Made by a program: the position numbers and the translations under genes. The notes under the pieces were generated by a model. It was not told the origin of the DNA, ran no database searches, and was given only the letters and a program-made list of their open reading frames with translations. Below are positions 5,275 to 22,716 of a stretch of DNA of 23,180 bases, one piece after another; the first letter of the stretch is position 1; each line of letters opens with the position of its first letter. Source of the stretch: a virus; the IMG/VR virus record IMGVR_UViG_3300030390_001712, positions 1 to 23,180 of that record; one strand, given 5' to 3'.

Positions 5275-5707
5275 TTAAATCATCTCCTGTTAATTTGCTT
5301 ATGTCAAGAATTTTCTTCTCTTCAATCTGAGCTGTAACCTCAACTGCCTTTAAATCAGGCATGCATTTTGACAACAAAGTTTTTGCAGCCATTATCCTTA
5401 ACTCAGGATCAGCACCAACCTTACCAATATCTTGAACATTACCTTGTTCATCTTGCGTGTAAACGCTGAACATCTCTCTGCCCTGCATAACTCCAGAAAG
5501 GAAACCAACAGGATCTGCTTGCCCCATGATCCAATTGATAGTTGCAGGATGATTCCATTTGTATCGCTTCTTTCTTTCGCGTGAAGGCTTCTGGTTCTTC
5601 AGAGGTTCAACTGATTTAAACTTACCATCCCATTTATCTGGTTGAACTGGGGCACTTTTGTTAACAGGCCTTTTAACTTGTACTTTCTTTTGGTTCTCTG
5701 TAGCCAT
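5168..5707 (-). CDS. Putative terminase small subunit
   Basis: This is a 179-aa protein directly upstream of TerL. The N-terminal 50 residues are strongly basic (PVNKSAPVQPDKW, RERKKRYKWNHP) and could bind DNA. A central segment, DPELRIMAAKTLLSKCMPDL followed by KAVEVTA, resembles the 'xLRxxAAxxLLxYxxPxLKAVEV' signature I associate with TerS-like proteins that precede TerL in many phages. The C-terminus is acidic and helical. Start is ATG at 5707 with GGGAG about 11 bases upstream. The 3' end overlaps terL by 107 bases, which is long. Function is inferred from signature and position. A generic head-module protein is the alternative. Confidence 0.6.
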   Translation of the reverse strand: MATENQKKVQVKRPVNKSAPVQPDKWDGKFKSVEPLKNQKPSRERKKRYKWNHPATINWIMGQADPVGFLSGVMQGREMFSVYTQDEQGNVQDIGKVGADPELRIMAAKTLLSKCMPDLKAVEVTAQIEEKKILDISKLTGDDLNAIERVLEHAVIEGDQGGENAEILEGIYQEQLASD

Positions 5708-5809
5708 TTATTATTCACTCCCAACCTTACTTGCAGTGGTCAACTGACAATTAAGTGTAACTTATTTAAACATAAAAAGAAAGCAATAATTAACGAACAC
5801 ATTCTCTGG
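5708..5809. other. 102-base intergenic gap before the terminase module
   Basis: No gene is supported here. On the minus strand a weak promoter-like pair can be drawn (TTTCTT, 17 bases, TACACT), followed by the small dyad CAGTTGACCACTG and then the GGGAG ribosome-binding site of the TerS-like gene. It does not match the repeated promoter element seen at the replication operons, so the late genes may have a different promoter type or be read from upstream. The promoter call is weak. Confidence 0.3.
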
Positions 5810-6310
5810 TCAAAGAAGCCAATTAGGCATTGATCTATTTTTGTTCCATCTAGCAAAGCCCATCTTATCTTTCTTATAAAATTTACGATACGCCTCTAAA
5901 GGATAACTCTCAGTTGTTTTAAGATCTTTATGATCACCAAAGCACTGCGGCATAACTGTAAGCATCTTCATATTACCTTTAGGAATAAGGCCGATGCCAA
6001 CTGCGATAGATTTCCTATGTTTACCTGCCCCATGGCATTTACCATAGCGATAAGTATATTCCCTCAACATAGCACAATACAAATTATACGCAAACCGAAA
6101 GTTGTAGCGAGTTTTCATAGCCCAAAGAGTGCAGGGATGTTTTTGGTGAACAGGTTTATACAGATCATTTTCTTCTGCATATTCTGGGGCGTGGTGCCAT
6201 AACGCAGTGCAAAGCATCTGCGCTTCTTCTAAAGGCATTTTTACAACGTGTTGATCGCATAACGCCCTAGCAATAGAATCAGGATCTTCATCAATTATAA
6301 ACCTATTCAT
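5810..6310 (-). CDS. Conserved phage protein, possibly pyrimidine-dimer-glycosylase related
   Basis: I place the start at ATG 6310 (166 aa) because it forms a classic ATGA overlap with the upstream gene and has AGGGTGG just before it. A GTG nine bases earlier is in frame but less well placed. Visible signatures are NRFIIDEDPDSIARALCDQH, HVVKMPLEEAQMLCTALW, KHPCTLWA and REYTYRYGKCH, a Cys/His/Tyr-rich pattern I have seen in proteins of many phages, usually called hypothetical and sometimes pyrimidine dimer DNA glycosylase. The DQH...E arrangement is faintly reminiscent of T4 DenV, but I cannot show homology. If right, it would repair UV damage. It is read from the accessory operon with the 63-aa and 128-aa genes. 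Confidence 0.65.
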   Translation of the reverse strand: MNRFIIDEDPDSIARALCDQHVVKMPLEEAQMLCTALWHHAPEYAEENDLYKPVHQKHPCTLWAMKTRYNFRFAYNLYCAMLREYTYRYGKCHGAGKHRKSIAVGIGLIPKGNMKMLTVMPQCFGDHKDLKTTESYPLEAYRKFYKKDKMGFARWNKNRSMPNWLL

Positions 6311-6498
6311 GTTTGCCACCCTGATATTGGAGAGTAACTTCCGTAAATAGTAGCACCCCCACCAGTATTTAGAAAACCTTCAACAGCAGTCTCAAAGCCA
6401 GTCTTCTCTGCTGCAACAATAGCATCCATAATCTCTCCAAAAACTTTATCTTCAGCCGAGGAGTGAGGGATATTTACCAAGCGTATTTTATAAAACAT
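6307..6498 (-). CDS. Small hypothetical protein (63 aa)
   Basis: This 63-residue product begins MFYKIRLVNIPHSSAEDKVF, continues with an amphipathic helix-like EIMDAIVAAEKTGFETAVEG, and ends in a Gly/Ser/Tyr-rich tail (GGGATIYGSYSPISGW). The start is ATG at 6498, five bases after a perfect TTGAGAAAGGAA ribosome-binding motif. Its TGA overlaps the next ATG by four bases. A stable hairpin lies just upstream. No family is recognised. Confidence 0.65.
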   Translation of the reverse strand: MFYKIRLVNIPHSSAEDKVFGEIMDAIVAAEKTGFETAVEGFLNTGGGATIYGSYSPISGWQT

Positions 6499-6521
6499 AT
6501 TATTTCCTTTCTCAATATGTT

Positions 6522-6539
6522 GGGGAGCCGAAGCTCCCC
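6522..6539 (-). other. C(UUCG)G tetraloop hairpin between two minus-strand genes
   Basis: On the minus strand the RNA would read GGGGAGC-UUCG-GCUCCCC, a perfect seven-pair stem closed by a C-G pair on a UUCG loop, one of the most stable RNA hairpins known. No U-run follows on the minus strand, so it is not a standard intrinsic terminator. It lies between the stop of the 128-aa gene and the ribosome-binding site of the 63-aa gene. Phage T4 messages use the same tetraloop between genes. A role in 3'-end protection or RNA processing is inferred. Confidence 0.8.
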
Positions 6540-6546
6540 TGATTAA

Positions 6547-6933
6547 TTAAACTGGTTTAAGACCAATGTTGTTATTTGCTGTAGCGACAATCTCAAACAT
6601 TTTCCCGTGAAACTTTATTTCATCTCCATGGTTCACCATGAAAGAAATCTCTTGATCTCGTGTGTGAGAAGTAATCGATACACCATTTCCGAATGCAAAA
6701 TGAAGATCCTCACCATTTTCTTTTGCTCTTTCTACTGCCTCGAATGGGCAACTACACCAGTCGATGGCGCAAGATACAACACTACCTAAAGTATAGAAGT
6801 TGTGCAGAGTGCCGTGGTTTATTGATTTATATGCAATAGCTAAGACATCACCATCTTTGTATCCTTCGTAATTTTCTTTACCTACAAAGATTTTGTGAGC
6901 TAAATTTTCGTGTGCTATTTCTCGTTGTGCCAT
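6547..6933 (-). CDS. Hypothetical protein, first gene of the leftward accessory operon (128 aa)
   Basis: The 128-aa product has alternating short strands and turns: VGKENYEGYKDGDVLAIA, a Cys-containing middle (SCAIDWCSCPF) and a likely beta-rich C-terminus (ISFMVNHGDEIKFHGKMFEI). CxxxxxCxC at about 55-62 could bind metal, but this is speculative. Start is ATG at 6933 after TTGAGAAAGGAA. It is the gene directly behind promoter element A, so it is probably made early and in quantity. I do not recognise the family. Confidence 0.7.
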   Translation of the reverse strand: MAQREIAHENLAHKIFVGKENYEGYKDGDVLAIAYKSINHGTLHNFYTLGSVVSCAIDWCSCPFEAVERAKENGEDLHFAFGNGVSITSHTRDQEISFMVNHGDEIKFHGKMFEIVATANNNIGLKPV

Positions 6934-6940
6934 TTTATTT

Positions 6941-7020
6941 CCTTTCTCAATGTATACCCTCTTCTACTCTATTTAATTAGAAAGGTAAAGCACTTTCTTT
7001 CCCTTTAATAACAAAGACTT
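6941..7020 (-). promoter_or_regulatory. Promoter-leader element copy A (leftward)
   Basis: Read on the minus strand from 7020 to 6941, this 80-base element aligns without gaps to copy B (12473-12552), matching at about 64 of 80 positions. It contains AAAGAAAGTGCTTTAC, a -35-like TTTACC (6989-6984), exactly 17 bases, a -10-like TAGAAG (6966-6961), then GGTATACATTGAGAAAGG leading into the 128-aa gene. Placement before a first gene and the sigma70-like spacing support a promoter. Whether host or phage polymerase uses it is unknown. Confidence 0.75.
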
Positions 7021-7028
7021 ACGAGAAA

Positions 7029-7133
7029 GTTCCCAGACACTGGGGTACAGTTTCCCCAGTTTTTCGAGAAAAGAAACCTAATTAACATTATGTTTTTAAA
7101 AGGTTTTTCCCAAAAGGTTCCCAAGGTTTCCCC
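7029..7133 (+). repeat. Iteron-like GTTnCCC direct repeats
   Basis: Five same-strand words are seen: GTTCCCAG (7029), GTTTCCCCAG (7050), GTTTTTCCCA (7103), GTTCCCA (7118) and GTTTCCCCA (7127). The last three form a near-tandem array in which TTCCC recurs about every 11 bases, one helical turn, each preceded by AAGG or AAAGG. The reverse word CTGGGAAC recurs at 7278-7285. This arrangement would place repeated protein contacts on one face of the helix. Confidence 0.6.
7039..7060. other. ACTGGGG/CCCCAGT dyad with following T-run
   Basis: There is a perfect seven-base inverted repeat (7039-7045 and 7054-7060) with an 8-base loop, followed on the plus strand by TTTTC. It has the shape of a short intrinsic terminator for plus-strand RNA, but no plus-strand gene precedes it. 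An operator or origin dyad is equally likely. Its arms share the GTTTCCCCAG/CTGGGG word of the surrounding repeats. Confidence 0.5.
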
Positions 7134-7235
7134 AAAAGTGCTTTTTTTAAGAAATTATTTTTTGTTGTAAAAATCTCCCCTATATAACTATCTCATAATT
7201 CTAGAACGTCCCCCATAAAACTAAAAGAAGAGAAA

Positions 7236-7250
7236 CCAGAGAAACTCTGG
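7236..7250. other. CCAGAG-AAA-CTCTGG inverted repeat
   Basis: A perfect six-base inverted repeat with a three-base centre is seen. A second CTCTGGG word occurs 31 bases downstream (7276-7282). Both lie upstream of the candidate rightward promoter D. They could be an operator for the divergent unit. No T-run follows, so a terminator is unlikely. Confidence 0.45.
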
Positions 7251-7295
7251 GGTCATAGTAATTTTTTATACAAAACTCTGGGAACCAAAAATAAA

Positions 7296-7346
7296 ACTTT
7301 ACTTTTTAGATTTTATAGATCACTATTATATTTATTGAGAAAGGAA
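7296..7346 (+). promoter_or_regulatory. Diverged promoter-leader element copy D (rightward)
   Basis: CTTTAC (7297-7302) is followed 38 bases later by TTGAGAAAGGAA (7335-7346). In copies A, B and C the distance is 40. The segment between is very AT-rich with TATAGAT (7314-7320) and TATTAT (7324-7329) as possible -10 boxes. The 17-base spacing of the other copies is not kept. It is called a promoter mainly because it heads the rightward operon and ends in the same leader motif. Confidence 0.45.
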
Positions 7347-7353
7347 GCCAATA

Positions 7354-7542
7354 ATGTATCAGTACAAACCTAAAGACAAAAAATTTAAATGGGAGCTGAA
7401 CCCAAATGGGCGTGTTTTTGTAAGACAAAAAACTGGTCCAAAGCCTAAAAATACATATCCTTGGTGTGAAGATATTTGGGACTACATGAATGATGTGAGT
7501 GGTTTCTTTGAAAATAAATTGTTTTATTCTGTAAAAAAATAA
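7354..7542 (+). CDS. Small basic hypothetical protein (62 aa)
   Basis: This is the first gene of the rightward replication operon. The 62-aa product is Lys-rich and starts YQYKPKDKKFKWELNPNGR, followed by RQKTGPKPKNTYPW and an aromatic acidic patch (WCEDIWDYMND). It is preceded by a perfect TTGAGAAAGGAA motif. Early position next to the putative origin and a basic, aromatic composition would fit a small nucleic-acid-binding or host-takeover protein, but that is inference. No family is recognised. Confidence 0.6.
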   Translation: MYQYKPKDKKFKWELNPNGRVFVRQKTGPKPKNTYPWCEDIWDYMNDVSGFFENKLFYSVKK

Positions 7543-7575
7543 GATAGAGTAAAATTTCTTGAGAAAGGATATAGA

Positions 7576-7971
7576 ATGGCAAATAGAGCTCCAAAGGTCT
7601 TTATCGTTAATAGACCTATAGAAAACAAGTTTGGTTGGACGCCAGATTTAAGTGATGCTTCACGATATGGCACGCTTGATGTTGTTTTTGAACCCAATGA
7701 AAAACCTCAATTTTTACCCAGCCCATCAATTCATAAAGCTCGGCAAAAGTTGAAAGATTTTGGTCCAGATGATTATATTCTGTGGCCAGGAGGTGGTGAC
7801 CCGATAGCAGTTATGATAACTTGTATGATTGCTAATGAAATGTCACCAATAGTTCGCATCCTAAGATGGGAGCGAGATAAAGAAGCAGGGCACAGAGATA
7901 GAAGAAAAGGCTTCTATATGCCTGTTGCCTTAGAGATGAGAAAGGAAAACCATGACTATCAATCTGCTTGA
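7576..7971 (+). CDS. Conserved phage hypothetical protein (131 aa)
   Basis: The 131-aa protein has an N-terminal strand motif (KVFIVNRPIENKFGWTPDL), a central DDYILWPGGGDPIAVMITCM segment and a charged ILRWERDKEAGHRDRRKGFY near the end. The 'xLWxGGDPxA' and 'LRWERxxxxxxRRxGFYxPV' patterns recall short proteins I have seen near replication genes in marine phages, with no assigned role. Start is ATG at 7576 after TTGAGAAAGGA. The 3' end overlaps the next gene by 20 bases, and that gene's ribosome-binding site lies inside this coding sequence. I can say no more on function. Confidence 0.75.
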   Translation: MANRAPKVFIVNRPIENKFGWTPDLSDASRYGTLDVVFEPNEKPQFLPSPSIHKARQKLKDFGPDDYILWPGGGDPIAVMITCMIANEMSPIVRILRWERDKEAGHRDRRKGFYMPVALEMRKENHDYQSA

Positions 7972-8551
7972 AGACGTAGCACCTGCGTCTAACTCACTAG
8001 GTGCAATTACTGAGATGGCTCAGAATATGTTTGATCTAGAAATAGAGATAAACAAATTAGAAGAGCTATTGAAGCAAAAAAAGCAGAACCTGACGAAGTT
8101 GGCCGAACATGACTTGCCTGATTTAATGCAAGAATTGAACGTCAAAGATTTCACCCTTAACAATGGTGCTAAGGTTGAAGTCAATGAAATAACTTCAGGC
8201 TCTATTCCTTCAGCTGGTGCAATACAAAGAGCATCAGGCGATGATAGAGCTGAACTGGAGTTACGTCAACAACAATGCTTTGCTTGGTTGAGAGCTAATA
8301 AAGCTGGAGACTTAATAAAAAGTAATGTTGAGGTTCAATTTGGACGAGATGAAGATAAAGCGTGCAATGATTTTGCAGATGAGTTGCGTCAGCGCAATAT
8401 CTTTTATCGTCGAGCAACTGGTGTGCATCACAGTTCTTTAAACAGTCTTATAAAAGAACGCATGTCAGAAGGTAAAGATGTCCCACAGGATCTCTTTAAA
8501 ATTTTCATAGGTCGTAGAGCCAAAATCAAAGGAGACAGAAATGTCAGATAA
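7952..8551 (+). CDS. Conserved phage replication-region protein with N-terminal coiled coil (199 aa)
   Basis: Residues about 24-60 form a charged coiled coil (IEINKLEELLKQKKQNLTKL), leading into HDLPDLMQELNVKDFTLNNG. The second half has QCFAWLRANKAGDLIKSNV, a HHSSLNSLIKERMSEG helix and DLFKIFIGRRAKIK at the end. This order ('EHDLPDxMxExG...FxLxxGxKV', 'AFxWLRxNxxGDLIK', 'LPxDLFxxxIGxxAxIK') is one I recognise as a widespread phage protein of unknown function, commonly beside the ssDNA-binding or recombination genes. The start is ATG at 7952 after AGAAAGGAA. It overlaps the next gene by 11 bases. It is probably a replication or recombination accessory factor (inference). Confidence 0.8.
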   Translation: MTINLLEDVAPASNSLGAITEMAQNMFDLEIEINKLEELLKQKKQNLTKLAEHDLPDLMQELNVKDFTLNNGAKVEVNEITSGSIPSAGAIQRASGDDRAELELRQQQCFAWLRANKAGDLIKSNVEVQFGRDEDKACNDFADELRQRNIFYRRATGVHHSSLNSLIKERMSEGKDVPQDLFKIFIGRRAKIKGDRNVR

Positions 8552-9335
8552 AGAAATCGCAGAAGTAAAAGCAACTAACGTAGTTGCATTCGACACCTCA
8601 ATTTTATTAGAAGATGCAGGCACAGCGTCAGAAAATATGACAGCAGATGATATGCTGATACCAAGGTTGAGGATTTTACAATCAGGTTCACCCCAAGTTA
8701 AAAAATCAGAGGGTGCTTATATAAAAGGTGCTGAGGAAGGTCACATCTTCGATAATGTTACGAATGAACTGTTTGATGGAGAAAAGGGCATAAATGTTGT
8801 GCCTATAACTTTCCGCAAGACTTACATCGAATGGACTGATGATCGTAAGTTTGTCGGTGATCATGGTATAAATGTAGATGTATCAAATTGCGTTTTAGAC
8901 GATAAATATAAATTGCGCAATCCAGAGGGTAATGTTATGACTCTGACTGCTGAATATTTAGTTTATGTCATAGATAAAAATGGCAATTACTCCCCAGCAC
9001 TTATCTCTATGAGTTCGTCAGGAATTAAAAAATCTAAAAGATGGAACTCGATGATGAATCGTTTAATGATTGCTGACCCTAATAAAGAAGGCTCAATGTT
9101 TAACCCAGCAATGTTTTGGACAGCATATAAAATAACCTCTGTGCCTGAGAGTAATGATAATGGGGCGTGGATGAATTGGGAGATCGAAATGATTTATGAT
9201 GCAGATTCAGGCGGCATAATCCAGAATTTACCTAATGGTGGTAATATCTATTTACAGGCACGTGATCTAAAAAGCAAAGCAGTTCGTGGTGAAGTCAGGG
9301 TTCAACCTGACACGCCTGAAGATGACGTAATGTAA
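8541..9335 (+). CDS. Putative single-stranded DNA-binding protein (264 aa)
   Basis: The 264-aa product begins with a short polar N-terminus, then DDMLIPRLRILQSGSPQVKK, GAYIKGAEEGHIFDNVTNEL, GINVVPITFRKTYIEW and a beta-rich middle with ALISMSSSGIKKSKRWNSMM, and ends in an acidic tail (QPDTPEDDVM). The 'IPxLxILQxxSPQ.K....YI.GA..G.IFN.VT...YDG..G..V.P' pattern is familiar from phage proteins beside primase and polymerase genes that are often treated as ssDNA-binding. An acidic flexible tail is typical of phage SSBs such as T7 gp2.5. The ribosome-binding site is AAAGGAGA, inside the previous gene. An intrinsic terminator follows 23 bases after the stop. Function is probable but not certain. Confidence 0.6.
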   Translation: MSDKEIAEVKATNVVAFDTSILLEDAGTASENMTADDMLIPRLRILQSGSPQVKKSEGAYIKGAEEGHIFDNVTNELFDGEKGINVVPITFRKTYIEWTDDRKFVGDHGINVDVSNCVLDDKYKLRNPEGNVMTLTAEYLVYVIDKNGNYSPALISMSSSGIKKSKRWNSMMNRLMIADPNKEGSMFNPAMFWTAYKITSVPESNDNGAWMNWEIEMIYDADSGGIIQNLPNGGNIYLQARDLKSKAVRGEVRVQPDTPEDDVM

Positions 9336-9358: not shown

Positions 9359-9404
9359 GGCAGACCCTTTATTCTTGCATGGTTCATTGGGTCTGCCGCT
9401 TTTT
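9359..9404 (+). terminator. Intrinsic terminator between the SSB-like and primase genes
   Basis: A nine-pair perfect stem GGCAGACCC (9359-9367) / GGGTCTGCC (9389-9397) has a 21-base loop and is followed by GCTTTTT. This is the clearest rho-independent terminator in the window. The primase ribosome-binding site AGAAAGGA begins right after the T-run, so no promoter fits between. Primase expression must come from read-through, which suggests attenuation or antitermination. Confidence 0.85.
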
Positions 9405-9419
9405 AGAAAGGATTATAAA

Positions 9420-10949
9420 ATGGCGACGAAGAGGTTTATGAACCTGTTCCGAGGTTATGAATTAGCCCATGGACAATATAGGGTTCAGAATGAAGAAGCT
9501 GACGGCAAAATGTCAGGCAGAGCAGTAACAGTTAGCGAGCAGGCAACTGAAAAGAATTTTGAAGATCATTTAAATGGTGGCGATTATATATTAGGCATCA
9601 TAATGCTAAAAGAAAATAACTCCTGCAACTTTGGGGTTATCGATATAGATATTCGTGGCGAGGTTAAACTGTCTGAAAGTTTAGAGTCACTTGAAAAGAA
9701 AATAAGACACACCCCATTAGTATTGTGTAGAAGTAAATCAGGCGGTGCACATTTATATTTATTTTGCGAGCCTGCGATAGCTGCAATGGATATGGTTTCT
9801 AAATTAAATGAATTTGCCGCGCAGTTAGGCTATGGAGGATCAGAAGTTTTCCCCAAGCAAATATCCAGAGCAAATGAACGTGACAGAGGTAACTGGATAA
9901 ACTTAGCATATTGGGATGGAGACAAAACAGAACGCTATGCAATGCACAATGGCAAGAAGTTAAATCTAAAACAGTTCTGTGATCTCGCAGAAAAGAAAAG
10001 AACTAATTACGAAAGTTTAGAAAAGTTTACACCCGAGCTAGTTAATCATTTTGAAGATGGGCCGCCTTGCTTACAACATATCATGACAATGGGATTCCCA
10101 GAAGGTGGACGAAACATCTCTTTGTTCAATGTTGGTGTTTATTACCGCAAGAAGAATCCAGACGACTGGCAAGAAGATTTAATGAAGTTTAACTATGAGC
10201 ATCTGCCCGAACCTTTGCCAAGCAGTGAAGTCAATGGCCTTGTAAAATCAGTTAGTAAAAAAGAATATGCCTATACATGTAAACAAACGCCAATATGTAA
10301 TTATTGCGAGAAGTCTAAATGCATGAAGAGAGATTATGGAGTTGGTGGGCTTGGTGGTGGGCTTTCAATTGAAGTAGACTCAATAACAAAATACGAAACT
10401 GAAAACAGACAATCAGTCCGTTGGTACATAGAAATGCAAGGCGAACGCATAGAAGTAACCACACCCCAACTTTTAGACCAAAGGCAACTGCAAAAGTTAT
10501 GCGTTGAAAAATTAAACAAATGCCCATCAACAATGCCCTCCCAACAATGGGAAAAAAGAATAAATGAATTATTACTTAGTGTAGAAGTAATTGTTGATCC
10601 TGACGATGCATCGCCCCAAGGTCAGTTTGAAAAGATGCTAGATAGCTTCTTGACAGGTAAAGTGCAAGCTCGCCAAAAAGATGAGATAATGAATGGCAAG
10701 CCATGGCACGACTCTGACGAGGGCAAAGTTTACTTTAGATCAGAAGATTTATTTATATATCTTGAAGCACGCAGGTTTAGATATCCCTCCCAGCATCAAG
10801 TCTGGTCTTGGCTAAGGACAGTTGGTGGTGATAGAAAAACATTTAAAATAAAATCTAAAACAGTTAAAGTTTGGTCAGTGCCTGAACCTGATTTTTATGA
10901 TGATGAGGACATGCTAGATATACCAAGTGCAGTAACAGAGGACTTTTAA
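9420..10949 (+). CDS. Archaeo-eukaryotic-type (TOTE-like) DNA primase
   Basis: The 509-aa protein is read as a primase that lays primers for replication. ATG at 9420 is chosen because TTAGAAAGGA lies just upstream; an ATG 45 bases earlier would start inside the terminator hairpin. N-terminal LFRGYELAHGQYRV (9-22) matches the entry motif of TOTE-type AEP domains. Motif I is FGVIDIDIRG with Asp75 and Asp77. Motif II is CRSKSGGAHLYLF with His111. QISRANERDRGNWINLAYW (148-166) carries the third conserved block. Four cysteines (287, 293, 296, 301: CKQTPICNYCEKSKC) form a likely zinc cluster, as in phage primases. The C-terminal 200 residues are unassigned. No helicase motifs are fused. It is followed by an SF1 helicase. 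Confidence 0.8.
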   Translation: MATKRFMNLFRGYELAHGQYRVQNEEADGKMSGRAVTVSEQATEKNFEDHLNGGDYILGIIMLKENNSCNFGVIDIDIRGEVKLSESLESLEKKIRHTPLVLCRSKSGGAHLYLFCEPAIAAMDMVSKLNEFAAQLGYGGSEVFPKQISRANERDRGNWINLAYWDGDKTERYAMHNGKKLNLKQFCDLAEKKRTNYESLEKFTPELVNHFEDGPPCLQHIMTMGFPEGGRNISLFNVGVYYRKKNPDDWQEDLMKFNYEHLPEPLPSSEVNGLVKSVSKKEYAYTCKQTPICNYCEKSKCMKRDYGVGGLGGGLSIEVDSITKYETENRQSVRWYIEMQGERIEVTTPQLLDQRQLQKLCVEKLNKCPSTMPSQQWEKRINELLLSVEVIVDPDDASPQGQFEKMLDSFLTGKVQARQKDEIMNGKPWHDSDEGKVYFRSEDLFIYLEARRFRYPSQHQVWSWLRTVGGDRKTFKIKSKTVKVWSVPEPDFYDDEDMLDIPSAVTEDF

Positions 10950-15127: not shown

Positions 15128-15559
15128 ATGAATAGAACTGTTATCGTCGATTTAGACGGCACGATATCTGATTGCAGTCAACGGCTACACCTTCACAAAG
15201 CAAATGACTACAAGGCTTTTAATGAAGCAGGCATAAATGATAAGCCAATAGAGAATGTTTGTAACTTAGTGCGCAGTGTAAAAGATTGTGAAACTAAAAT
15301 TGTTATAATGACAGCCAGAGACGAGAGCTGCAGGCCTTCTGTGAAAGAGTGGCTTAAATTAAATGATGTGCCTTATGATGATATTATTATGAGACCTTCT
15401 TCAGACCAATCGCCTGACCATGTTTGTAAGCAGAGGTTATTTGAAAAAAACTTTGAGTATTCAGATATTTGGTTTGCTCTTGAAGATAGGAAGTCAGTTG
15501 TTGATATGTGGAGAGGTGAAGGTGTTACCTGTTTGCAAGTTGCTCCAGGAGATTTTTAA
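15128..15559 (+). CDS. HAD-family polynucleotide 3'-phosphatase-like protein
   Basis: The 143-aa protein has the HAD motif I VDLDGT (Asp8 nucleophile, Asp10), motif II IVIMTARDE (Thr62), a Lys in motif III (DHVCKQRLF, Lys101) and motif IV FALEDRKSVVDMW (Asp120, Asp126). The last part, VVDMWRGEGVTCLQVAPGDF, closely follows the end of the T4 polynucleotide kinase-phosphatase 3'-phosphatase domain as I recall it (EMWRRIGVECWQVASGDF). No P-loop kinase domain is attached. Likely role: removing 3'-phosphates from nucleic-acid ends during repair or tRNA/DNA end healing, or a related phosphatase. TTAGAAAGGAA lies upstream. The stop overlaps the next ATG by one base (TAATG). Confidence 0.82.
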   Translation: MNRTVIVDLDGTISDCSQRLHLHKANDYKAFNEAGINDKPIENVCNLVRSVKDCETKIVIMTARDESCRPSVKEWLKLNDVPYDDIIMRPSSDQSPDHVCKQRLFEKNFEYSDIWFALEDRKSVVDMWRGEGVTCLQVAPGDF

Positions 15560-15726
15560 TGGCATTGAGGGTTATAGGTAATGACCTTGAGTTGGATGGG
15601 GAGAAAGTCGCAAGGCTTTTCGACCTTCCAGCAAAGCGTCAAGATTTAATTGAGATGATTGATAAAGCAAACGATTATGAAGCAGATGTAGAAGATGCAT
15701 TCTGGAGAGGTAAGAATGACCAGTGA
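15559..15726 (+). CDS. Small hypothetical protein (55 aa)
   Basis: This frame runs from ATG 15559 to TGA 15726, 55 residues, starting MALRVIGNDLELDGEKVARL and ending in an acidic helix (NDYEADVEDAFWRGKNDQ). AGGAG lies seven bases before the start. It shares one base with the previous stop and overlaps the next gene by 11 bases. Tight fit and good ribosome-binding site support a real gene. The sequence is helix-rich with no recognised family. Confidence 0.65.
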   Translation: MALRVIGNDLELDGEKVARLFDLPAKRQDLIEMIDKANDYEADVEDAFWRGKNDQ

Positions 15727-16054
15727 AGCAAGAACGCCAGTGGAGTGTATTGAAGAAGCACTCAAAACATTTAGAGAGCGCAACCAAAGCTATGGTGATA
15801 ATTATTTGCAACATGGCAGAGTGATGTCTGCTTTATTCCCTGATGGTATTAATTTAAAGACAGTTGAAGATTGGAACAGGTTCGGCATAATAAATATGGT
15901 CGTTGCCAAGCTAACTCGTTATTCTCAAAAGTGGCCGCATGTTGATAAGGGAACAATTGATTCAGTTCATGATATGGGTGTTTATTCATTTATGTTAGAG
16001 TCGCTTGATTCAGCTGAATTAGAAAAGAAAAGCGAAGAAATAATACCTTTTTGA
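15716..16054 (+). CDS. MazG-like all-alpha protein (nucleotide pyrophosphohydrolase fold, putative)
   Basis: I start this 112-aa protein at ATG 15716, preceded by GAGAGGTAAGA; an in-frame ATG at 15695 has no good ribosome-binding site. The pattern FRERNQSYGDNYLQHGRVMS, then FPDGINLKTVEDWNRFGIIN, VVAKLTRYSQKW and DSVHDMGVYSFMLESL resembles small phage proteins of the MazG-like / DUF1599-type alpha-helical group, in which helices carrying E/D and K-LxRY residues form a metal-dependent nucleotide-binding bundle. The catalytic ExxE-type acidic set is not fully evident, so enzyme activity is unproven. Its place between a phosphatase and dnaQ suggests nucleotide-pool housekeeping (inference). Confidence 0.6.
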   Translation: MTSEARTPVECIEEALKTFRERNQSYGDNYLQHGRVMSALFPDGINLKTVEDWNRFGIINMVVAKLTRYSQKWPHVDKGTIDSVHDMGVYSFMLESLDSAELEKKSEEIIPF

Positions 16055-16065
16055 TTGGAAAGACT

Positions 16066-16602
16066 ATGATTATATTTGATTTAGAAACCACAGGACTTCC
16101 TAAAGCTGAAGGTTCTGATTTAGACCTTCAACCTAAGATAATTGAGTTCGGTGCCATAAAAGTAACTGACGGGACTTTTGAAGAAATGGAAAGGATTGAG
16201 TTTATGTGCAATCCTGGGCATAGCCTTGATCCTAAGATAACTAAGATAACAGGCATAAAAGATGAAGATCTAAAAGACAAAAAACCTTTTATAGCTCACT
16301 ACAAAGAGCTGTCCCATTGGTTTTTAGGTCAAAGGTCTCTTGCCGCTCACAATTTACCTTTTGATAGGAAAGTTTTAAGATATGAGCTAGAAAGAATTGA
16401 CAAGTTGACTAAATTCCCTTGGCCTTTTAATCACGTCTGTACTTTAGAGGTTGGACAAAGTGTATGGGGAAGGATGCGCAAGCTAGGAGATATCCATTTA
16501 GAGGTAACTGGTAACGAAATAAAAAATGCGCACAGGTCTTTAGCTGACGTTGAGGCAACCATAGAAATATTAAAATGGTATAAAAAAGAGGGACACATAT
16601 AG
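16066..16602 (+). CDS. dnaQ: DnaQ-like 3'-5' proofreading exonuclease (Pol III epsilon type)
   Basis: The 178-aa DEDDh exonuclease has Exo I MIIFDLETTG (Asp5, Glu7), Exo II AAHNLPFDRKVL (Asp100) and Exo III NAHRSLADVEAT (His156, Asp161). All catalytic positions are present. ATG 16066 is preferred, with GGAAAG just before it; an in-frame TTG at 16051 overlaps the previous stop and is less likely. At 178 aa it is shorter than E. coli epsilon (243), lacking most of the C-terminal alpha-binding extension. Its TAG overlaps the GTG start of dnaE by one base, so exonuclease and polymerase should be made together. It probably proofreads for the phage DnaE. Confidence 0.92.
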   Translation: MIIFDLETTGLPKAEGSDLDLQPKIIEFGAIKVTDGTFEEMERIEFMCNPGHSLDPKITKITGIKDEDLKDKKPFIAHYKELSHWFLGQRSLAAHNLPFDRKVLRYELERIDKLTKFPWPFNHVCTLEVGQSVWGRMRKLGDIHLEVTGNEIKNAHRSLADVEATIEILKWYKKEGHI

Positions 16603-19412
16603 TGTTACACATAAGAACTAGAACTGAATATTCTTTCCGCAAAGCATATGGCCCAATTCAAGGCATTGTTGATGGCGCGAGCGAAGCAATTGGCATAGCA
16701 GACTCAGGAACTTGGGGTCATGTACCTTTTAACAATGCTTGTAAAAAAGCAGGAGTCAAACCTATATTTGGAGTTGAGATAGCTGTTGTAGGAGATTCAA
16801 CCGAGAGAACTAAACAACCTTCAAACTCAATGGCATTCATAGCTAAGAATAATTCTGGGCTGACTGAGGTATATGAGCTTGTTACTAAAAGCACGCAAAA
16901 GGAAAATTTTTATTACTTCCCAAGGATAAGTTATTCTGATCTGTTTGATATTTCCAGCAATGTTATAATTTTAAGTGGAAGTCATCCTGAATGGGGAATG
17001 CTTCCTTTGACCAGAAAAGACGATCTGTACATTGAGATAAATCCTATGAGCTCCCGCAAAGCTCTAGAGTTCTGCGAGCAGAAAGGTTTTAAACCAGTCG
17101 CAACGAGTGATAATTATTATCCAAAAGTTGCAGACAAAAAAGCATATGAAGTTTTAGTTGGCCGCAACAGAACTGAAAGAACCTCTCCTATGCATCTTTT
17201 AAACGAGTGGGAGATTTTAGATTGCATTCCTTGGTTGCCTGACGAAGCAATAGCCAATACATATAAAATCGCTGATATGTGTAATGTAGATTTACCAGTT
17301 GCGCAAATGATTTCTTTTAAACCTGAGAAAACTTTAAGGCAAATGTGTATAGATGGAGCACCATCAAGAGGTGTAGATCTATCCGACCCAATTTACAACG
17401 CTCGTTTAGACAGAGAGCTTGATATGATTTCAAGCAAAAAGTTTGAAGATTATTTTTACGTTATAGCTGATATGATAAATTATGCTAAAAAGCATATGTT
17501 GGTTGGTCCTGCTCGAGGATCTTCTGCTGGGTCTTTAGTTTGCTGGTTGATAGGTATTACAGATGTTGACCCTATATTTCATGATTTATTGTTTGAAAGA
17601 TTTATAGATATAACCCGAGAAGACTTACCAGACATAGATATAGATTTCCAAGATGACAGGCGTGAGATGGTTTTCCAATACCTTAGAGATAAGTATGGCT
17701 CTGAGAAAGTTGCTCACTTAGGAACTGTAAGCCGATACAAAGCTAAAAGCACAATCACTGAAGTTGCTAAAGAATTAGCAATACCTGCTTGGGAAGTTAA
17801 TGATTTGAAAGGTGCGATCATAGAGCGCAGTTCTGGTGATGCTCGTGCAGCTATGTGTATTATGGATACCTTTAACGATCTTGAGGTTGGCAAAGAAGTT
17901 TTAAAGAAATATCCACAAATGAAAATAGCCTCAAAGATGGAAAATCACGCTCGCCATACAGGTGTTCATGCAGCAGGCATAATCGTAACAGAAGAACCAG
18001 TTAGCAAGTATTGCTCTGTTAGTGGTCAGAGTGGTGCAGCCCAAATAGATAAATCAGACGCTGAAGACTTAAACTTATTAAAGATTGACGCATTAGGACT
18101 TAGGACTCTTTCTGTATTGCAAGATGTTTTAGACCAAGTCGGTTGGGAAAGAGAAAAGCTCGTTAATTTCCCACTAGAGGATGAAAAGGCTTTTGACATA
18201 CTTAATGATGAAAAATACGCAGGGATATTTCAGTTTGAAGGATATGCCCTCCAGTCATTAACACGTCAAATGAAGATTAGCAACTTTGAAGATATCGCGG
18301 CAATAACTGCCCTTGCGCGTCCTGGACCATTAAACTCTGGCGGCACAACTGAATATATAAAAAGAAAAGTTGGCTCTGAACCTGTTTCTTATCTTCACCC
18401 AATGACTGAAGAGATAACTAAAATAACTAATGGGGTTGTTGTTTACCAAGAACAAGTCATGACAATCGCCAGAGATGTGGGTAAGTTAAGTTGGGAGGAC
18501 GTTTCTCAATTACGCAAGGCAATGAGTAAAAGTTATGGGGAAGAGTATTTTGATACTTTTTGGGTAAGATTTAAGGCAGGAGCTGAATCCCAAGGAATAG
18601 AAGAAGACCAAGCACTTAAAGTCTGGAAGAATATTAATACAATGGGCTCTTGGGCATTTAACCGAAGTCACGCAATAGCATATGGAATGGTAAGTTATTG
18701 GTGTTGCGTTTTAAAAAGCAGATTCCCTTTAGAATTTGCTGCTGCTTGTTTACGGAATGTTAAAGATGATGATCAGGGTGTAAAGCTATTGCGCGAGGTT
18801 GCTCGTGAAGGATTAGTTTATAAACCTTATGATAAATACAAATCAAAGCTAAATTGGTCTGTTCAAGAAGGAGAGTTGATTGGTGGGCTTATAGGTATAA
18901 GAGGTATTGGCCCGAAGTTAGCTGAAGACATTGCAAAAAGAAGAGAGTTCAAGCAACCTCTAACCCCTCGCCAAGAAAGCCTTTTAGATAATGGCCAGAC
19001 TCCATATGATGACATATTTGAGTGCGAGCGTAGGTTTGGGCATATTAAAAAAGACCCATCCTCTCATAATATAAAAACTCCGATAACTGACATACAAGAT
19101 CTTGAAGCTGACACTCCAGGAACTTTTGTATTCTTCGGCAAGCTAAAAGAGAAGAATTTAAGAGATTTAAATGAAACTGTTAACCTCGCTAAAAGAGGCG
19201 GCAGAAGAGCTGAGACTCATAACCTTTGGCTTAACATGACTTTTGAAGATGACACTGGCCCAATTATATCTACAATTGATAGATTTAAATATCCTAAGAT
19301 GGGGAAGGCCATAGTTGAAGATGGCAGGCTTGGTGATTGGTATCTAATAAAAGGCACACTCCGTAAAGGTTTTAGAAAAATATATGTAGATAAATGGAGA
19401 AAACTCTCGTAA
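16602..19412 (+). CDS. dnaE: DNA polymerase III alpha subunit (DnaE-type replicative polymerase)
   Basis: This is a 936-aa C-family polymerase. The N-terminal PHP domain (1-200) starts HIRTRTEYS instead of the metal-binding HxRxHSxYS, and other usual ligands are also lost (ADSGTWG, ATSDNYY), so PHP is probably inactive. Palm: VGPARGSSAGSLVCWLIG (301-318), PDIDIDF with Asp346 and Asp348 (343-349), KIDALGL with Asp496. Further blocks: HARHTGVHAAGII, GIFQFEGYAL, TALARPGPLNSGG, VVYQEQVM, FNRSHAIAYGMVSY (686-699). A helix-hairpin-helix (GIRGIGPKLAED, 765-776) and an OB-like C-terminus follow. It is about 220 aa shorter than E. coli DnaE and lacks the tau-binding region. Start is GTG 16602 with GAGGGA upstream. 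I see no obvious clamp-binding motif. Confidence 0.95.
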   Translation: MLHIRTRTEYSFRKAYGPIQGIVDGASEAIGIADSGTWGHVPFNNACKKAGVKPIFGVEIAVVGDSTERTKQPSNSMAFIAKNNSGLTEVYELVTKSTQKENFYYFPRISYSDLFDISSNVIILSGSHPEWGMLPLTRKDDLYIEINPMSSRKALEFCEQKGFKPVATSDNYYPKVADKKAYEVLVGRNRTERTSPMHLLNEWEILDCIPWLPDEAIANTYKIADMCNVDLPVAQMISFKPEKTLRQMCIDGAPSRGVDLSDPIYNARLDRELDMISSKKFEDYFYVIADMINYAKKHMLVGPARGSSAGSLVCWLIGITDVDPIFHDLLFERFIDITREDLPDIDIDFQDDRREMVFQYLRDKYGSEKVAHLGTVSRYKAKSTITEVAKELAIPAWEVNDLKGAIIERSSGDARAAMCIMDTFNDLEVGKEVLKKYPQMKIASKMENHARHTGVHAAGIIVTEEPVSKYCSVSGQSGAAQIDKSDAEDLNLLKIDALGLRTLSVLQDVLDQVGWEREKLVNFPLEDEKAFDILNDEKYAGIFQFEGYALQSLTRQMKISNFEDIAAITALARPGPLNSGGTTEYIKRKVGSEPVSYLHPMTEEITKITNGVVVYQEQVMTIARDVGKLSWEDVSQLRKAMSKSYGEEYFDTFWVRFKAGAESQGIEEDQALKVWKNINTMGSWAFNRSHAIAYGMVSYWCCVLKSRFPLEFAAACLRNVKDDDQGVKLLREVAREGLVYKPYDKYKSKLNWSVQEGELIGGLIGIRGIGPKLAEDIAKRREFKQPLTPRQESLLDNGQTPYDDIFECERRFGHIKKDPSSHNIKTPITDIQDLEADTPGTFVFFGKLKEKNLRDLNETVNLAKRGGRRAETHNLWLNMTFEDDTGPIISTIDRFKYPKMGKAIVEDGRLGDWYLIKGTLRKGFRKIYVDKWRKLS

Positions 19413-19510
19413 GCCTTTGTTTTTAAAGGAAAAGAAAGTTACTTTATTTCTGACTTAGTGCTTTACTTCTCTGGCTAAAGAGCGTAAAAGAAGGTATATT
19501 TTGAGAAAGG
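19411..19510 (+). promoter_or_regulatory. Promoter-leader element copy C with a 20-base insertion
   Basis: This starts two bases before the end of dnaE and runs to the 100-aa gene. It shares AAGnCTTTGTT, AAAGAAAGT, GTGCTTTAC and GGTATATTTTGAGAAAGG with copies A and B. -35 TTTACT is at 19462-19467, then 17 bases, then -10 TAAAAG at 19485-19490. Between AAAGAAAGT and GTGCTTTAC there are 20 extra bases that look like an imperfect duplication of the -35 segment. The CTTTAC to TTGAG distance (40) is unchanged. Confidence 0.75.
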
Positions 19511-19517
19511 AAGTAAA

Positions 19518-19820
19518 ATGAAAACACCAGTTTACACAAATACTAATGATACCTCGCCTAGAAACACTCCAGATTTCCAACACTTTATGGAAACTTTAGA
19601 GGCTTTTGAAAACTTAGACCGCGAGGTAAAAAAGGAGGATGACAAAACTTGGAATCATAGAGATTTAGAGGCTAGGATTCTTTCAAACCGAGATCGTTAT
19701 GGTCAGATAATTAATCAACTTACTTCAGCTGAAAAATCAGTTGCTTCGAGATTTAGGCCTCTTATGGAAGCGTGGCGAGTTAATTGTAGAATTGAGAAAG
19801 GAATATACGATGGAAAATAA
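19518..19820 (+). CDS. Hypothetical helical protein heading the third rightward operon (100 aa)
   Basis: The 100-aa product has a polar N-terminus (KTPVYTNTNDTSPRNTPDF) followed by charged helices (METLEAFENLDREVKKEDDK; DLEARILSNRDRYGQIINQL) and a basic end. It looks like a small helical bundle. Start ATG 19518 follows promoter C and TTGAGAAAGGAA. It overlaps the next gene by 11 bases, and that gene's ribosome-binding site lies in this coding sequence. No family is recognised. Confidence 0.68.
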   Translation: MKTPVYTNTNDTSPRNTPDFQHFMETLEAFENLDREVKKEDDKTWNHRDLEARILSNRDRYGQIINQLTSAEKSVASRFRPLMEAWRVNCRIEKGIYDGK

Positions 19821-20313
19821 ACATAACCCAAATGCTAGAGAGATCACTGACTGGATCGGTAATTCAAGGATTACTTGGTGTGGTCCTTTTTCAGTTGCCA
19901 CTGTTGCTGGCATTAAATACGAGCCAGCTTACCAAACTCTAAAAATGATTAGAGGTAAGCGTCATTGTAAAGGTGTTACTAAAAGTAACATCACAAAGGC
20001 TTGTCAGAGATTTGGTGTTAACCCTAAATACACCGCTCTTAAAAAGCGAAGAGTTCTTCGTAAATTTATCGAGGATGGTCATCTTGAGTCTGGTAAAGTT
20101 TATATTGTTGAAGTTACTAAGCATGTGCTTGTTATTGATACTCGTGATTGGACCACTATTGACAATCAGGTTGCTAAGTGGAGAGCGATGGATGCTTCTC
20201 ACCACTGGTCAAGGAAACTTGTAAAAGGCTTCCACGAGATCAGAAACCCTAAGTTTCTACCATCAGACGAGGGGCAATTAAATTTTGATTTTGCCCTAGC
20301 TGCAGGGAGGTAA
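19810..20313 (+). CDS. C39-like (papain-fold) cysteine-peptidase-like phage protein
   Basis: I start at ATG 19810 (167 aa), seven bases after TTGAGAAAGGAA; a TTG 69 bases upstream is in frame but lacks a ribosome-binding site. Residues 21-33 (ITWCGPFSVATVA) carry the Cys-Gly-Pro of C39-type peptidases with Cys24 as nucleophile. GKVYIVEVTKHVLVIDT supplies His105, and TTIDNQ supplies Asp118/Asn119, the order Cys-His-Asp/Asn. Such small papain-fold proteins occur in many phages with no assigned role. The C-terminal QLNFDF resembles a beta-clamp-binding peptide (QLxLF type), which would be notable in a replication operon but may be chance. Alternatives: an inactive fold used for binding, or an anti-host protease. 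Confidence 0.6.
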   Translation: MENKHNPNAREITDWIGNSRITWCGPFSVATVAGIKYEPAYQTLKMIRGKRHCKGVTKSNITKACQRFGVNPKYTALKKRRVLRKFIEDGHLESGKVYIVEVTKHVLVIDTRDWTTIDNQVAKWRAMDASHHWSRKLVKGFHEIRNPKFLPSDEGQLNFDFALAAGR

Positions 20314-20319
20314 TTTATA

Positions 20320-20454
20320 ATGAGTAATTGTTATAAGTGCGATAACCGAGGAATTATTTATGAGCGCGATCCCTATGGGGATTGCGTTAATCTTGAGGCT
20401 TGTGATTGTAAAGCTGCAAAAGAAAGGTTTGAAGACGATAATGAGAATAACTAA
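20320..20454 (+). CDS. Zinc-cluster miniprotein (44 aa)
   Basis: This short frame runs from ATG 20320 to TAA 20454. The 44 residues start MSNCYKCDNRGIIYERDPYG and contain five cysteines: CxxC at 4-7, Cys22, and CxC at 28-30. This is enough for one zinc ribbon-like site. The tail is charged (KERFEDDNENN). GGGAGG lies nine bases before the start, the strongest ribosome-binding site nearby. It overlaps the following helicase gene by 14 bases. It may be a nucleic-acid- or protein-binding adapter. Function unknown. Confidence 0.7.
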   Translation: MSNCYKCDNRGIIYERDPYGDCVNLEACDCKAAKERFEDDNENN

Positions 20455-22132
20455 AGCACCTTTTGGCAAGTATTGCATTGCGACTGTTCCTTTAGGTGGG
20501 GGCAACTTTGATAAGTTGAACTCACTTCCTGGATTTAAAAAATGGATCGGCAGAACTCTTATGTTTGATCCTACTGGTGCTAATATTGAACGCATTAATA
20601 AATACTGGCCAGATGCTAAATGGGACGAAAGTGTTTCCGAGATACTTGATGAATATATCTTAAAATTGAAAACTGCTGAAGAAACTTTAAAACTTAAAAA
20701 AGATGCTTTGCCTTCAACAGATGATTTTGATTTTAAAACTAAGCCATTTGATCACCAGAGAAGAGCTTTTTATATGAGCCGAGATAAAGATTCTTTTGGT
20801 TTGTTAATGGAGCAAGGCACAGGCAAAACTAAAGTAATAATTGATAATGCTGCTTATCTTTATGCAAAAGGCGAGATTACTGCGCTTGTTGTTATTGCTC
20901 CTAATGGCGTTCACCGAAACTGGTTAAACACAGAGATTCCTTTCCATATGCCTGATTGGTGTATTCATAATTCAGTATTCTATACTTCTGGTATGAATAA
21001 AAAACAATCAAAACAATTTGATGATGTGCTTTCTTCTTCTAACTGTTTAAAGATATTTAGTTTTAATGTTGAGGCTTTTACTAGCCAAGTTGCTGTTAAG
21101 TATATGATGAAGATTTTATTAAGCAACAGAGTTATGCTTGTTGTTGATGAAAGCTCTAGGATAAAACGTCCAGGAGCCAAGCGAACAAAGATAATAACTA
21201 AATTTTCAAAACAAGCAAAATATAGAAGAATATTAACAGGCACACCTGTGACCAAAGGACCAGAAGACACATACAGCCAGTTTAAATTTTTAAACCCTTT
21301 GATATTAGGTTATGACAGCTTTTATTCTTTTAAAGCTAGATATTGTAATATGGGCGGCTTTGAGAACAAACAGATTGTTGGTTATAAAAATGTTGATGAA
21401 CTTACGAGGAATATTGAAGGCCATAGTTTTAGAGTTCTTAAAAAAGACTGCTTAGATCTTCCTGATAAAATATACCAGAGACATTATGTTGAATTAACAC
21501 CTAGGCAGAAAAACATATATGAAACTCTTAGGAAATCTTTTGTCGCAGAACTTGACGGGAATATAATTGAAGCACCCGAAGCAATTACAAGATTATTAAG
21601 ACTTCAGCAGGTTTTATGTGGGTGGTTTTCAGGTGAGGAAGGCATACAGCAAATAGACGATAAAAATGCTCGTTTAGAGGCGTTAAAAGAGATACTGTCA
21701 GATATAGACTCTAAAGTTATAATATGGGCTAGATTTAAAGCCGATTTAAAGGCCATACAGAGGGCATTAGGTGAAGAGGCAGTAGCTTATCACGGAGAGG
21801 TATCAAACGACGATAGAGAGGTGGCCGTTTACAGATTCCAAAACGACCCAAAAATCAAATATTTCGTAGGTCAGCCCCAGTCGGGGGGAATAGGTTTAAC
21901 TTTGACTGCTGCTGATTATGTTATTTATTATTCTAACAGCTTTGATTTAGAGATAAGAATGCAGTCTGAAGACAGGTGTCACCGAATAGGAACTAAAAAC
22001 AATGTTACTTATATTGACATAGAAGCTCGCAAAAGCATAGACACTAAAATAATAAAAGCCTTGCGAGAGAAAAAGAATTTAGCAGACATAATAACTAAAG
22101 ACCCAATGTCATTATTTTTAGTGGAGGATTGA
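20441..22132 (+). CDS. SNF2-family (superfamily 2) helicase/ATPase
   Basis: I start this 563-aa protein at ATG 20441 (MRITKAPFGKY). An earlier in-frame ATG at 20360 would lie wholly inside the zinc-miniprotein gene and gives a less convincing N-terminus. Motifs: DHQRRAF (Q-type), Walker A LMEQGTGKT (122-130), Ia VIAPNGVHRNW (151-161), Walker B VVDESSRIK (234-242, DESS in place of DEAH), III LTGTPV (265-270), V SGGIGLTLTAAD (481-492) and VI QSEDRCHRIGTKN (508-520). Length matches a bare SNF2 core with an N-terminal 100-residue domain. Phage SNF2 proteins are thought to act in replication or recombination fork remodelling. A VRR-NUC-like nuclease follows after one small gene. Confidence 0.93.
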   Translation: MRITKAPFGKYCIATVPLGGGNFDKLNSLPGFKKWIGRTLMFDPTGANIERINKYWPDAKWDESVSEILDEYILKLKTAEETLKLKKDALPSTDDFDFKTKPFDHQRRAFYMSRDKDSFGLLMEQGTGKTKVIIDNAAYLYAKGEITALVVIAPNGVHRNWLNTEIPFHMPDWCIHNSVFYTSGMNKKQSKQFDDVLSSSNCLKIFSFNVEAFTSQVAVKYMMKILLSNRVMLVVDESSRIKRPGAKRTKIITKFSKQAKYRRILTGTPVTKGPEDTYSQFKFLNPLILGYDSFYSFKARYCNMGGFENKQIVGYKNVDELTRNIEGHSFRVLKKDCLDLPDKIYQRHYVELTPRQKNIYETLRKSFVAELDGNIIEAPEAITRLLRLQQVLCGWFSGEEGIQQIDDKNARLEALKEILSDIDSKVIIWARFKADLKAIQRALGEEAVAYHGEVSNDDREVAVYRFQNDPKIKYFVGQPQSGGIGLTLTAADYVIYYSNSFDLEIRMQSEDRCHRIGTKNNVTYIDIEARKSIDTKIIKALREKKNLADIITKDPMSLFLVED

Positions 22133-22133
22133 T

Positions 22134-22289
22134 ATGAGTAGCTTTTCACAGTTAGTAATTGCTGGTGTTGTTATACACAAAATACGAATGATAGTAGAAA
22201 ATAATGACGACAAAAGTAGCAAAGAATTAAAATCTGAAATTAAAGACATAATTTATAACGATATTATTGATAGGAATAGTAATGAGTGA
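22134..22289 (+). CDS. Small hypothetical protein (51 aa)
   Basis: This frame runs from ATG 22134 to TGA 22289, 51 residues. The N-terminal 20 (MSSFSQLVIAGVVIHKIRMI) are hydrophobic with a basic end, like a short amphipathic or membrane-associated helix. The rest is charged and helical (KSSKELKSEIKDIIYNDIID). GGAGG lies six bases upstream of the start, just inside the helicase stop. It overlaps the nuclease gene by 8 bases. Good ribosome-binding site and tight spacing support it. Role unknown. Confidence 0.68.
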   Translation: MSSFSQLVIAGVVIHKIRMIVENNDDKSSKELKSEIKDIIYNDIIDRNSNE

Positions 22290-22716
22290 AAAAAACTTCT
22301 GGACACTAATAAGGAATAATTTACCTTTGAAAATGTACCGCGTTGAAAACAAAGTTATGAAAGGAATGCCAGATGTCCATTACATAGATAAACAAGGAAA
22401 CTCTGGCTGGATAGAATTAAAGTTTTTAGATTCTTGGCCAAAGAAAGTTTTAAGCATAGGCCTGCGCATGAACCAGAGCTTGTGGTTAACTAGTTATGCT
22501 AGGAGTAAAGGAAGTTGTTGGGTTTTATTAAAAGTTGGAAGAGATTACACAGCTTTAATGAAAGGCAAAGACGCAGATAAATTATTTAGACCTAGTAAAA
22601 AAGAATTCTTTAATGTTGTTCATTGGTCAAAAAAAGGCAACTTATCAAAAGACGACTGGTCAGAGCTCTGCGATGTTATCACCCTTTCCCAGAAAATGCC
22701 GATCCCGTCAGTATAG
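22282..22716 (+). CDS. VRR-NUC-like (PD-(D/E)XK) nuclease
   Basis: I start at ATG 22282 (144 aa) with AGGA about six bases upstream; an in-frame TTG at 22267 is less likely. The core RVENKVMKGMPDVHYIDKQG then GWIELKFLD gives the PD-(D/E)XK signature (Asp in GMPDV, ExK in IELKF), and RMNQSLWLTSY supplies the conserved Gln-containing helix. This matches phage VRR-NUC / Holliday-junction-resolvase-like proteins often paired with SNF2 helicases. It probably cuts branched or flap DNA in replication or recombination. Its last 38 bases overlap tail-to-tail with the minus-strand holin-like gene. Confidence 0.85.
   Translation: MSEKNFWTLIRNNLPLKMYRVENKVMKGMPDVHYIDKQGNSGWIELKFLDSWPKKVLSIGLRMNQSLWLTSYARSKGSCWVLLKVGRDYTALMKGKDADKLFRPSKKEFFNVVHWSKKGNLSKDDWSELCDVITLSQKMPIPSV

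Follow-up and report, generated by a model that had tools for sequence, protein, structure and literature searches.

In bacteria, proofreading of C-family replicative polymerases follows an either-or rule, PHP or DnaQ, and in alpha-, beta- and gammaproteobacteria the PHP domain is as a rule dead and DnaQ a separate protein (PMC3919608, PMC12926913). Among viruses, Pbunavirus LBL3 and Serratia phage WR01 already have an annotated alpha/epsilon pair, and the arrangement is known from Pseudomonas and enterobacterial phages and also from Vibrio phage VA-RY-3. We analysed a pair of this kind in a virus record of 23,180 bases (IMG/VR IMGVR_UViG_3300030390_001712), the whole of which is referred to below as the window, and where a phrog_192 gene and a phrog_405 gene are likewise neighbours. 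In Pbunavirus LBL3, Wifcevirus FEC19 and Myosmarvirus WR01, the same exonuclease of about 180 aa lies directly upstream of the polymerase gene with a one-base overlap, the PHP site is also dead (1-2/9 ligands), and there is no clamp motif; their DnaEs are about 37-42% identical to that of the window, which represents a different phage lineage of marine origin. In view of the LBL3 and WR01 annotations, of phrog_192 itself and of the proteobacterial dead PHP plus DnaQ, the pair is a further example of a known arrangement; what is new here is the comparison, across phages, of PHP state with exonuclease presence.

We read the locus as encoding a C-family (Pol III type) replicative core that belongs to the phage itself, with a probability of about 0.85. 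The PHP domain of DnaE would serve as a scaffold that has lost catalytic activity, with 3'-5' proofreading provided in trans by a separate DEDDh exonuclease that has no tail and presumably contacts DnaE physically. The clade that carries the exonuclease gene and has lost the metal site would have arisen from ancestors in which the PHP site was intact and the exonuclease gene absent, the order of exonuclease gain and PHP loss being one that we infer. The features of the locus are:

16057..16062, plus strand: possible ribosome-binding site of the exonuclease, GGAAAG (sequence)
16066..16602, plus strand: DEDDh 3'-5' exonuclease, epsilon-like (PF00929, phrog_192), 178 aa, without a tail (Pfam, PHROGs, model of a relative)
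16078..16086, plus strand: exonuclease motif I, D5 and E7 (invariant in 79 sequences)
16363..16365, plus strand: exonuclease motif II, D100 (invariant in 79 sequences)
16531..16548, plus strand: exonuclease motif III, H156 and D161 (invariant in 79 sequences)
16588..16593, plus strand: possible ribosome-binding site of DnaE, GAGGGA, within the exonuclease gene (sequence)
16600..16604, plus strand: TAG/GTG stop-start overlap of one base (sequence)
16602..19412, plus strand: C-family DNA polymerase, DnaE-type (phrog_405), 936 aa, GTG start (Pfam, PHROGs, model)
16602..17291, plus strand: PHP domain (aa 1-230), seven of nine metal ligands lost (DnaE alignment, family conservation, fold match)
17331..18593, plus strand: palm, thumb and fingers (aa 244-664) with catalytic D344, D346 and D496 (Pfam, catalytic alignment)
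19059..19409, plus strand: C-terminal OB fold (aa 820-936; model alignment to E. coli alpha)

The exonuclease starts at the ATG at 16066; an alternative in-frame TTG at 16051 would extend it to 183 aa, and the ATG is favoured because GGAAAG sits directly before it. The ORF coordinates place the exonuclease gene directly upstream of DnaE, as had been predicted, with base 16602 common to the TAG (16600-16602) and the GTG (16602-16604). This stop-start overlap probably couples translation of the two genes, and the position of the putative DnaE ribosome-binding site, inside the exonuclease gene and 8 nt upstream of the GTG start, would fit such coupling.

The upstream product matched RNase_T in Pfam (E 1.6e-26) and phrog_192, 'DNA polymerase exonuclease subunit', in PHROGs (E 2.6e-41), and its best PDB sequence match was a PolC-type exonuclease domain. 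The DEDDh active site (D5, E7, D100, H156, D161) is complete in 79/79 sequences, bearing out the description of the exonuclease as intact. A structure model of a relative's exonuclease matched residues 8-180 of E. coli epsilon (Z 20.6). According to this model and the sequence alignment, the phage protein stops at a point matching about residue 180 of the 243 in E. coli epsilon, and both the clamp-binding QTSMAF and the alpha-binding tail are absent from it. The protein had been described as short and lacking most of that tail; the loss is confirmed, and 'most' is too weak, since the tail is wholly absent.

These properties extend to the close family, which we defined by 80 IMG/VR loci encoding relatives (74-97% identity). 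The exonuclease was located upstream of DnaE in 78/78 loci where both genes could be placed, with its C-terminus within one residue of that of the window, and the gap between the two genes ranged from -4 to +651 nt. Adjacency and the lack of a tail are conserved, and the one-base overlap of the window is just one among the spacings seen. The same overlap recurs in the isolates VA-RY-3, FEC19, LBL3 and WR01. Tight adjacency is not essential, since 0.4-1.5 kb separate the two genes in loci L104, L105 and L106. No natural fusion of exonuclease and DnaE was found among about 120 viral and phage loci. One candidate, a product of Pseudomonas phage BR150a labelled 'DNA polymerase III alpha subunit' (L209, 3924-4529), was rejected because it is a mislabelled, stand-alone DEDDh exonuclease of 201 aa.

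The window DnaE retains an N-terminal PHP fold, which matched PF02811 (E 1.8e-12) and the E. coli alpha PHP-epsilon chimera 4gx8 (Z 23.7, rmsd 2.6). We scored the nine PHP ligands, given as HHDHEH[C/H]DH in published work (PMC12926913, PMC3919608), in an alignment that included, besides the window, DnaE of E. coli, 28 other phage DnaEs and 80 bacterial DnaEs. The string obtained for the window is RRKSESSDY: R5, R7, K14, S35, S76, S127 and Y172 occupy lost positions, E59 and D170 are kept, and the nine-ligand site of a PHP-type proofreading DnaE is thereby reduced to 2/9, a larger loss than the several ligands originally claimed. E. coli DnaE scores 4/9 in the same alignment, so that a dead PHP domain is nothing unusual in a polymerase that works with epsilon. 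Among the 80 sequences of the close family, the main substitutions vary little or not at all (R7 in 80/80, K14 in 76/80), and E59 and D170 are invariant. This pattern suggests a pocket that has settled in a new state, with a positive charge at the former metal position, rather than one that is drifting.

Comparison with PHP-intact polymerases did not reveal ligands that were shifted but present, and relocation was rejected because the fold superposes on the PHP domain of E. coli alpha; the conserved H40 was also rejected as a relocated ligand, being present in PHP-intact relatives. A PHP domain that still binds metal and acts, as an exonuclease or a pyrophosphatase, through a rearranged ligand set would find some basis in E59, D170 and the conserved acidic D34, and in PMC4822814, where the PHP domain of E. 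coli DnaE is credited with pyrophosphatase activity. We regard it as very improbable indeed, because none of the lost ligands is replaced by a His or Cys, because R7 and K14 put positive charge where a metal would sit, and because VA-RY-3 and L105 retain 0/9 ligands. The scaffold role is the one that we retain for this domain.

Across phages, the PHP sites of DnaE fall into two states, 9/9 or 0-2/9 ligands. The complete site is present in Butterscotch, Emianna, Hiddenleaf, Izzy, Grungle, Sham, NiceHouse, FADO and six environmental DnaEs, and the depleted one in the window family, VA-RY-3, FEC19, LBL3, WR01, BUCTxx99 and loci L097, L101, L104-L106 and L115. A DEDDh-family exonuclease was found in 15/15 dead-PHP records vs 2/13 intact-PHP records (Fisher p 3.6e-6, a test that treats records as independent, which they are not); Sham and FADO, whose PHP sites are intact, encode an exonuclease elsewhere that matches weakly. 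The correlation rests on few independent events, namely the window clade and perhaps BUCTxx99. In the latter, a Stenotrophomonas phage (L088 / OR529408), DnaE has 0/9 ligands and a long branch, and a DEDDh exonuclease lies ~69 kb away in the record; this may be a second, unlinked proofreader swap. In Microbacterium phage Hiddenleaf (L085), DnaE is split into two ORFs (4986-6023 and 6034-8337), with the PHP part (9/9) separate from the polymerase part.

The exonuclease might instead be a general 3' end-processing or DNA-recycling nuclease within a replication operon. Such a role would suit a protein that lacks every known epsilon docking element and that is not adjacent to DnaE in some relatives, as well as the situation in Hollowayvirus BR150a, where a homologous exonuclease is followed by an SSB gene and no DnaE is annotated in the stretch read. 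We nevertheless consider it unlikely, given that the exonuclease occurs in every dead-PHP phage record examined and is missing from nearly all intact-PHP ones, and that adjacency with a stop/start overlap recurs across isolates at 35-45% identity. A proofreading role thus stays our preferred reading.

The origin of this association was addressed with a quick maximum-likelihood tree of 60 DnaEs, which is rooted at midpoint only and in which some placements are uncertain. The exonuclease-bearing, dead-PHP clade (14 rows, SH-aLRT 100) is sister to a clade of intact-PHP phage DnaEs (8 rows, 100), and further intact-PHP phage DnaEs branch outside these two clades. The window DnaE groups with phage DnaEs, outside the 30 bacterial DnaEs, and far from those of E. 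coli and other proteobacterial DnaE1s. The window clade descends from phage DnaEs with an intact PHP site and stands apart from proteobacterial DnaE1, which points to an independent proofreader swap, and the simplest reading of the tree is a single swap in the window clade, independent of that in Proteobacteria.

The phage polymerase could also borrow the epsilon of its host, the phage exonuclease being secondary. The host is likely a roseobacter, as judged from the structural genes, and roseobacters are alphaproteobacteria, where DnaE1 relies on epsilon (PMC3919608); the resemblance of the PHP fold to that of E. coli points the same way. Against this, an exonuclease that is catalytically intact by its residues is kept in all relatives, and the phage and bacterial DnaEs share only about 30% identity, which makes reliance on host epsilon decidedly unlikely compared with proofreading by the phage's own exonuclease.

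As for the polymerase itself, Pfam found DNA_pol3_alpha (PF07733, E 4.4e-70) and DNA_pol3_finger (PF17657, E 2.2e-41), and PHROGs matched phrog_405, 'DNA polymerase' (E 3.9e-255). Equivalents of E. coli D401, D403 and D555 are all present in the alignment. An AlphaFold model of the window DnaE alone (pLDDT 86.7, pTM 0.81) matched E. coli alpha 2hnh (Z 32.1), with residues 1-936 aligned to 6-1074; the protein ends at the equivalent of residue 1074 of 1160, so that the C-terminal tau-binding domain is missing. The HhH-OB segment is shortened, and neither a second HhH nor a clamp motif was found in DnaE by the model alignment to E. coli alpha and the motif pattern. A Q..[LMI]F motif after the palm occurs in 0/15 phage DnaE rows, the window included, and in about 51/66 bacterial rows searched with the same pattern. 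QESLL at residues 791-795 of DnaE, conserved in 78/80 family members, was not accepted as a clamp motif, since a helix is predicted there and the sister phages lack it.

A phage-encoded clamp (PF02768) was found in 0/28 phage records, and thioredoxin (PF00085), the T7-like processivity factor, in 0/5 records. In two of the clamp-less records, the contig ends carry the two parts of a split TerL, an indication that these maps are closed, at about 54 kb. It is possible, if doubtful, that a minimal C-family replicase copies these ~54 kb genomes with no sliding-clamp or tau contact, its tail-less proofreader docked by a surface unlike that used by E. coli epsilon. The host clamp may be engaged through an uncharacterised contact, or the enzyme may work with no clamp at all. 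The term 'two-gene replicase' was an overstatement, since processivity, loading and priming need other proteins.

We then considered how the exonuclease and DnaE might meet. The suggestion that they pair in a different way is plausible in that the E. coli epsilon tether is missing. As a linked-chain device, the exonuclease stop and the intergenic bases of L051 were read through to give a chain of 1,136 aa, with no claim that the phage itself does so. AlphaFold gave this chain a pLDDT of 87.6 and a pTM of 0.76, vs 0.81 for the window DnaE alone (a different sequence, 78% identical), and simple arithmetic predicts about 0.71 for an undocked exonuclease and 0.82 for one docked as firmly as DnaE's own domains. 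The placement of the exonuclease in the linked chain is therefore intermediate, a suggestive outcome that does not amount to evidence of an interface. Exonuclease distances correlate best with those of the PHP domain (r 0.68), and the correlation, taken in segments along DnaE, falls mostly gradually with distance; co-evolution of exonuclease and PHP was rejected, as linkage suffices for this gradual fall.

By terminase, the isolates closest to the window are Roseobacter phages CRP-901 and CRP-902 (80% identical), which reportedly rely on a bifunctional primase-polymerase and have no gene for a DNA polymerase (PMC10149686). The window combines a CRP-901/902-like terminase (3775-5274) with a different replication module (15128-22716), pointing to exchange of modules between close structural relatives. 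An assembly chimera of structural and replication halves was rejected because TerL and DnaE share a contig in nine relatives. Throughout, rows labelled VIA-align served for positive matches only, and no family absence rests on them. Elsewhere in the window, a 149-aa phrog_2165 protein (22267-22716), 'DNA helicase' in PHROGs, adjoins an SNF2 helicase. The PHROGs label is probably misleading, and the protein may be a small nuclease of VRR-NUC type; a VRR-nuclease occupies the corresponding position in CRP-902. The primase at 9375-10949 has an AEP domain related to TOTE conflict systems and a weak PriCT-1 match. Adjacent ORFs at 15128-15559 and 15695-16054 match the N- and C-terminal parts of a single phrog_4889 protein ('polynucleotide kinase/phosphorylase'), and one of them is a PNKP-type phosphatase. 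Three successive genes (7576-9335) match the families of phage Pam3 gp32, gp33 and gp34, and 5810-6319 gave a weak match to pyrimidine dimer DNA glycosylase, slightly under the cut-off.

The bacterial choice between PHP and DnaQ also holds among phages, where the switch appears to have happened independently. A naturally stripped-down Pol III core, devoid of epsilon tail, known clamp motif and tau domain, could help to identify the components of the E. coli holoenzyme that replication can do without, and to explain how an untethered exonuclease gains access to the primer end; the key question is whether this core works without the host clamp.

Compared with the E. coli Pol III core (alpha DnaE1 and epsilon DnaQ), the window shares the PHP-Pol3-HhH-OB order, the dead PHP domain and a separate DEDDh proofreader. 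It differs in an epsilon without alpha-binding tail or clamp motif, in an alpha without second HhH, QxxLF clamp motif or CTD, and in its position in the tree. The DnaE-like Pol III of actinophages Butterscotch, Emianna and Hiddenleaf belongs to the sister clade and has a related C-terminal OB region; unlike the window, these phages have all nine PHP ligands and no DEDDh exonuclease was found in their genomes. In PolC and Bacteroidetes DnaE1, a DEDDh exonuclease likewise serves a C-family polymerase (PMC3919608), being part of the same chain there and a separate protein in the window.
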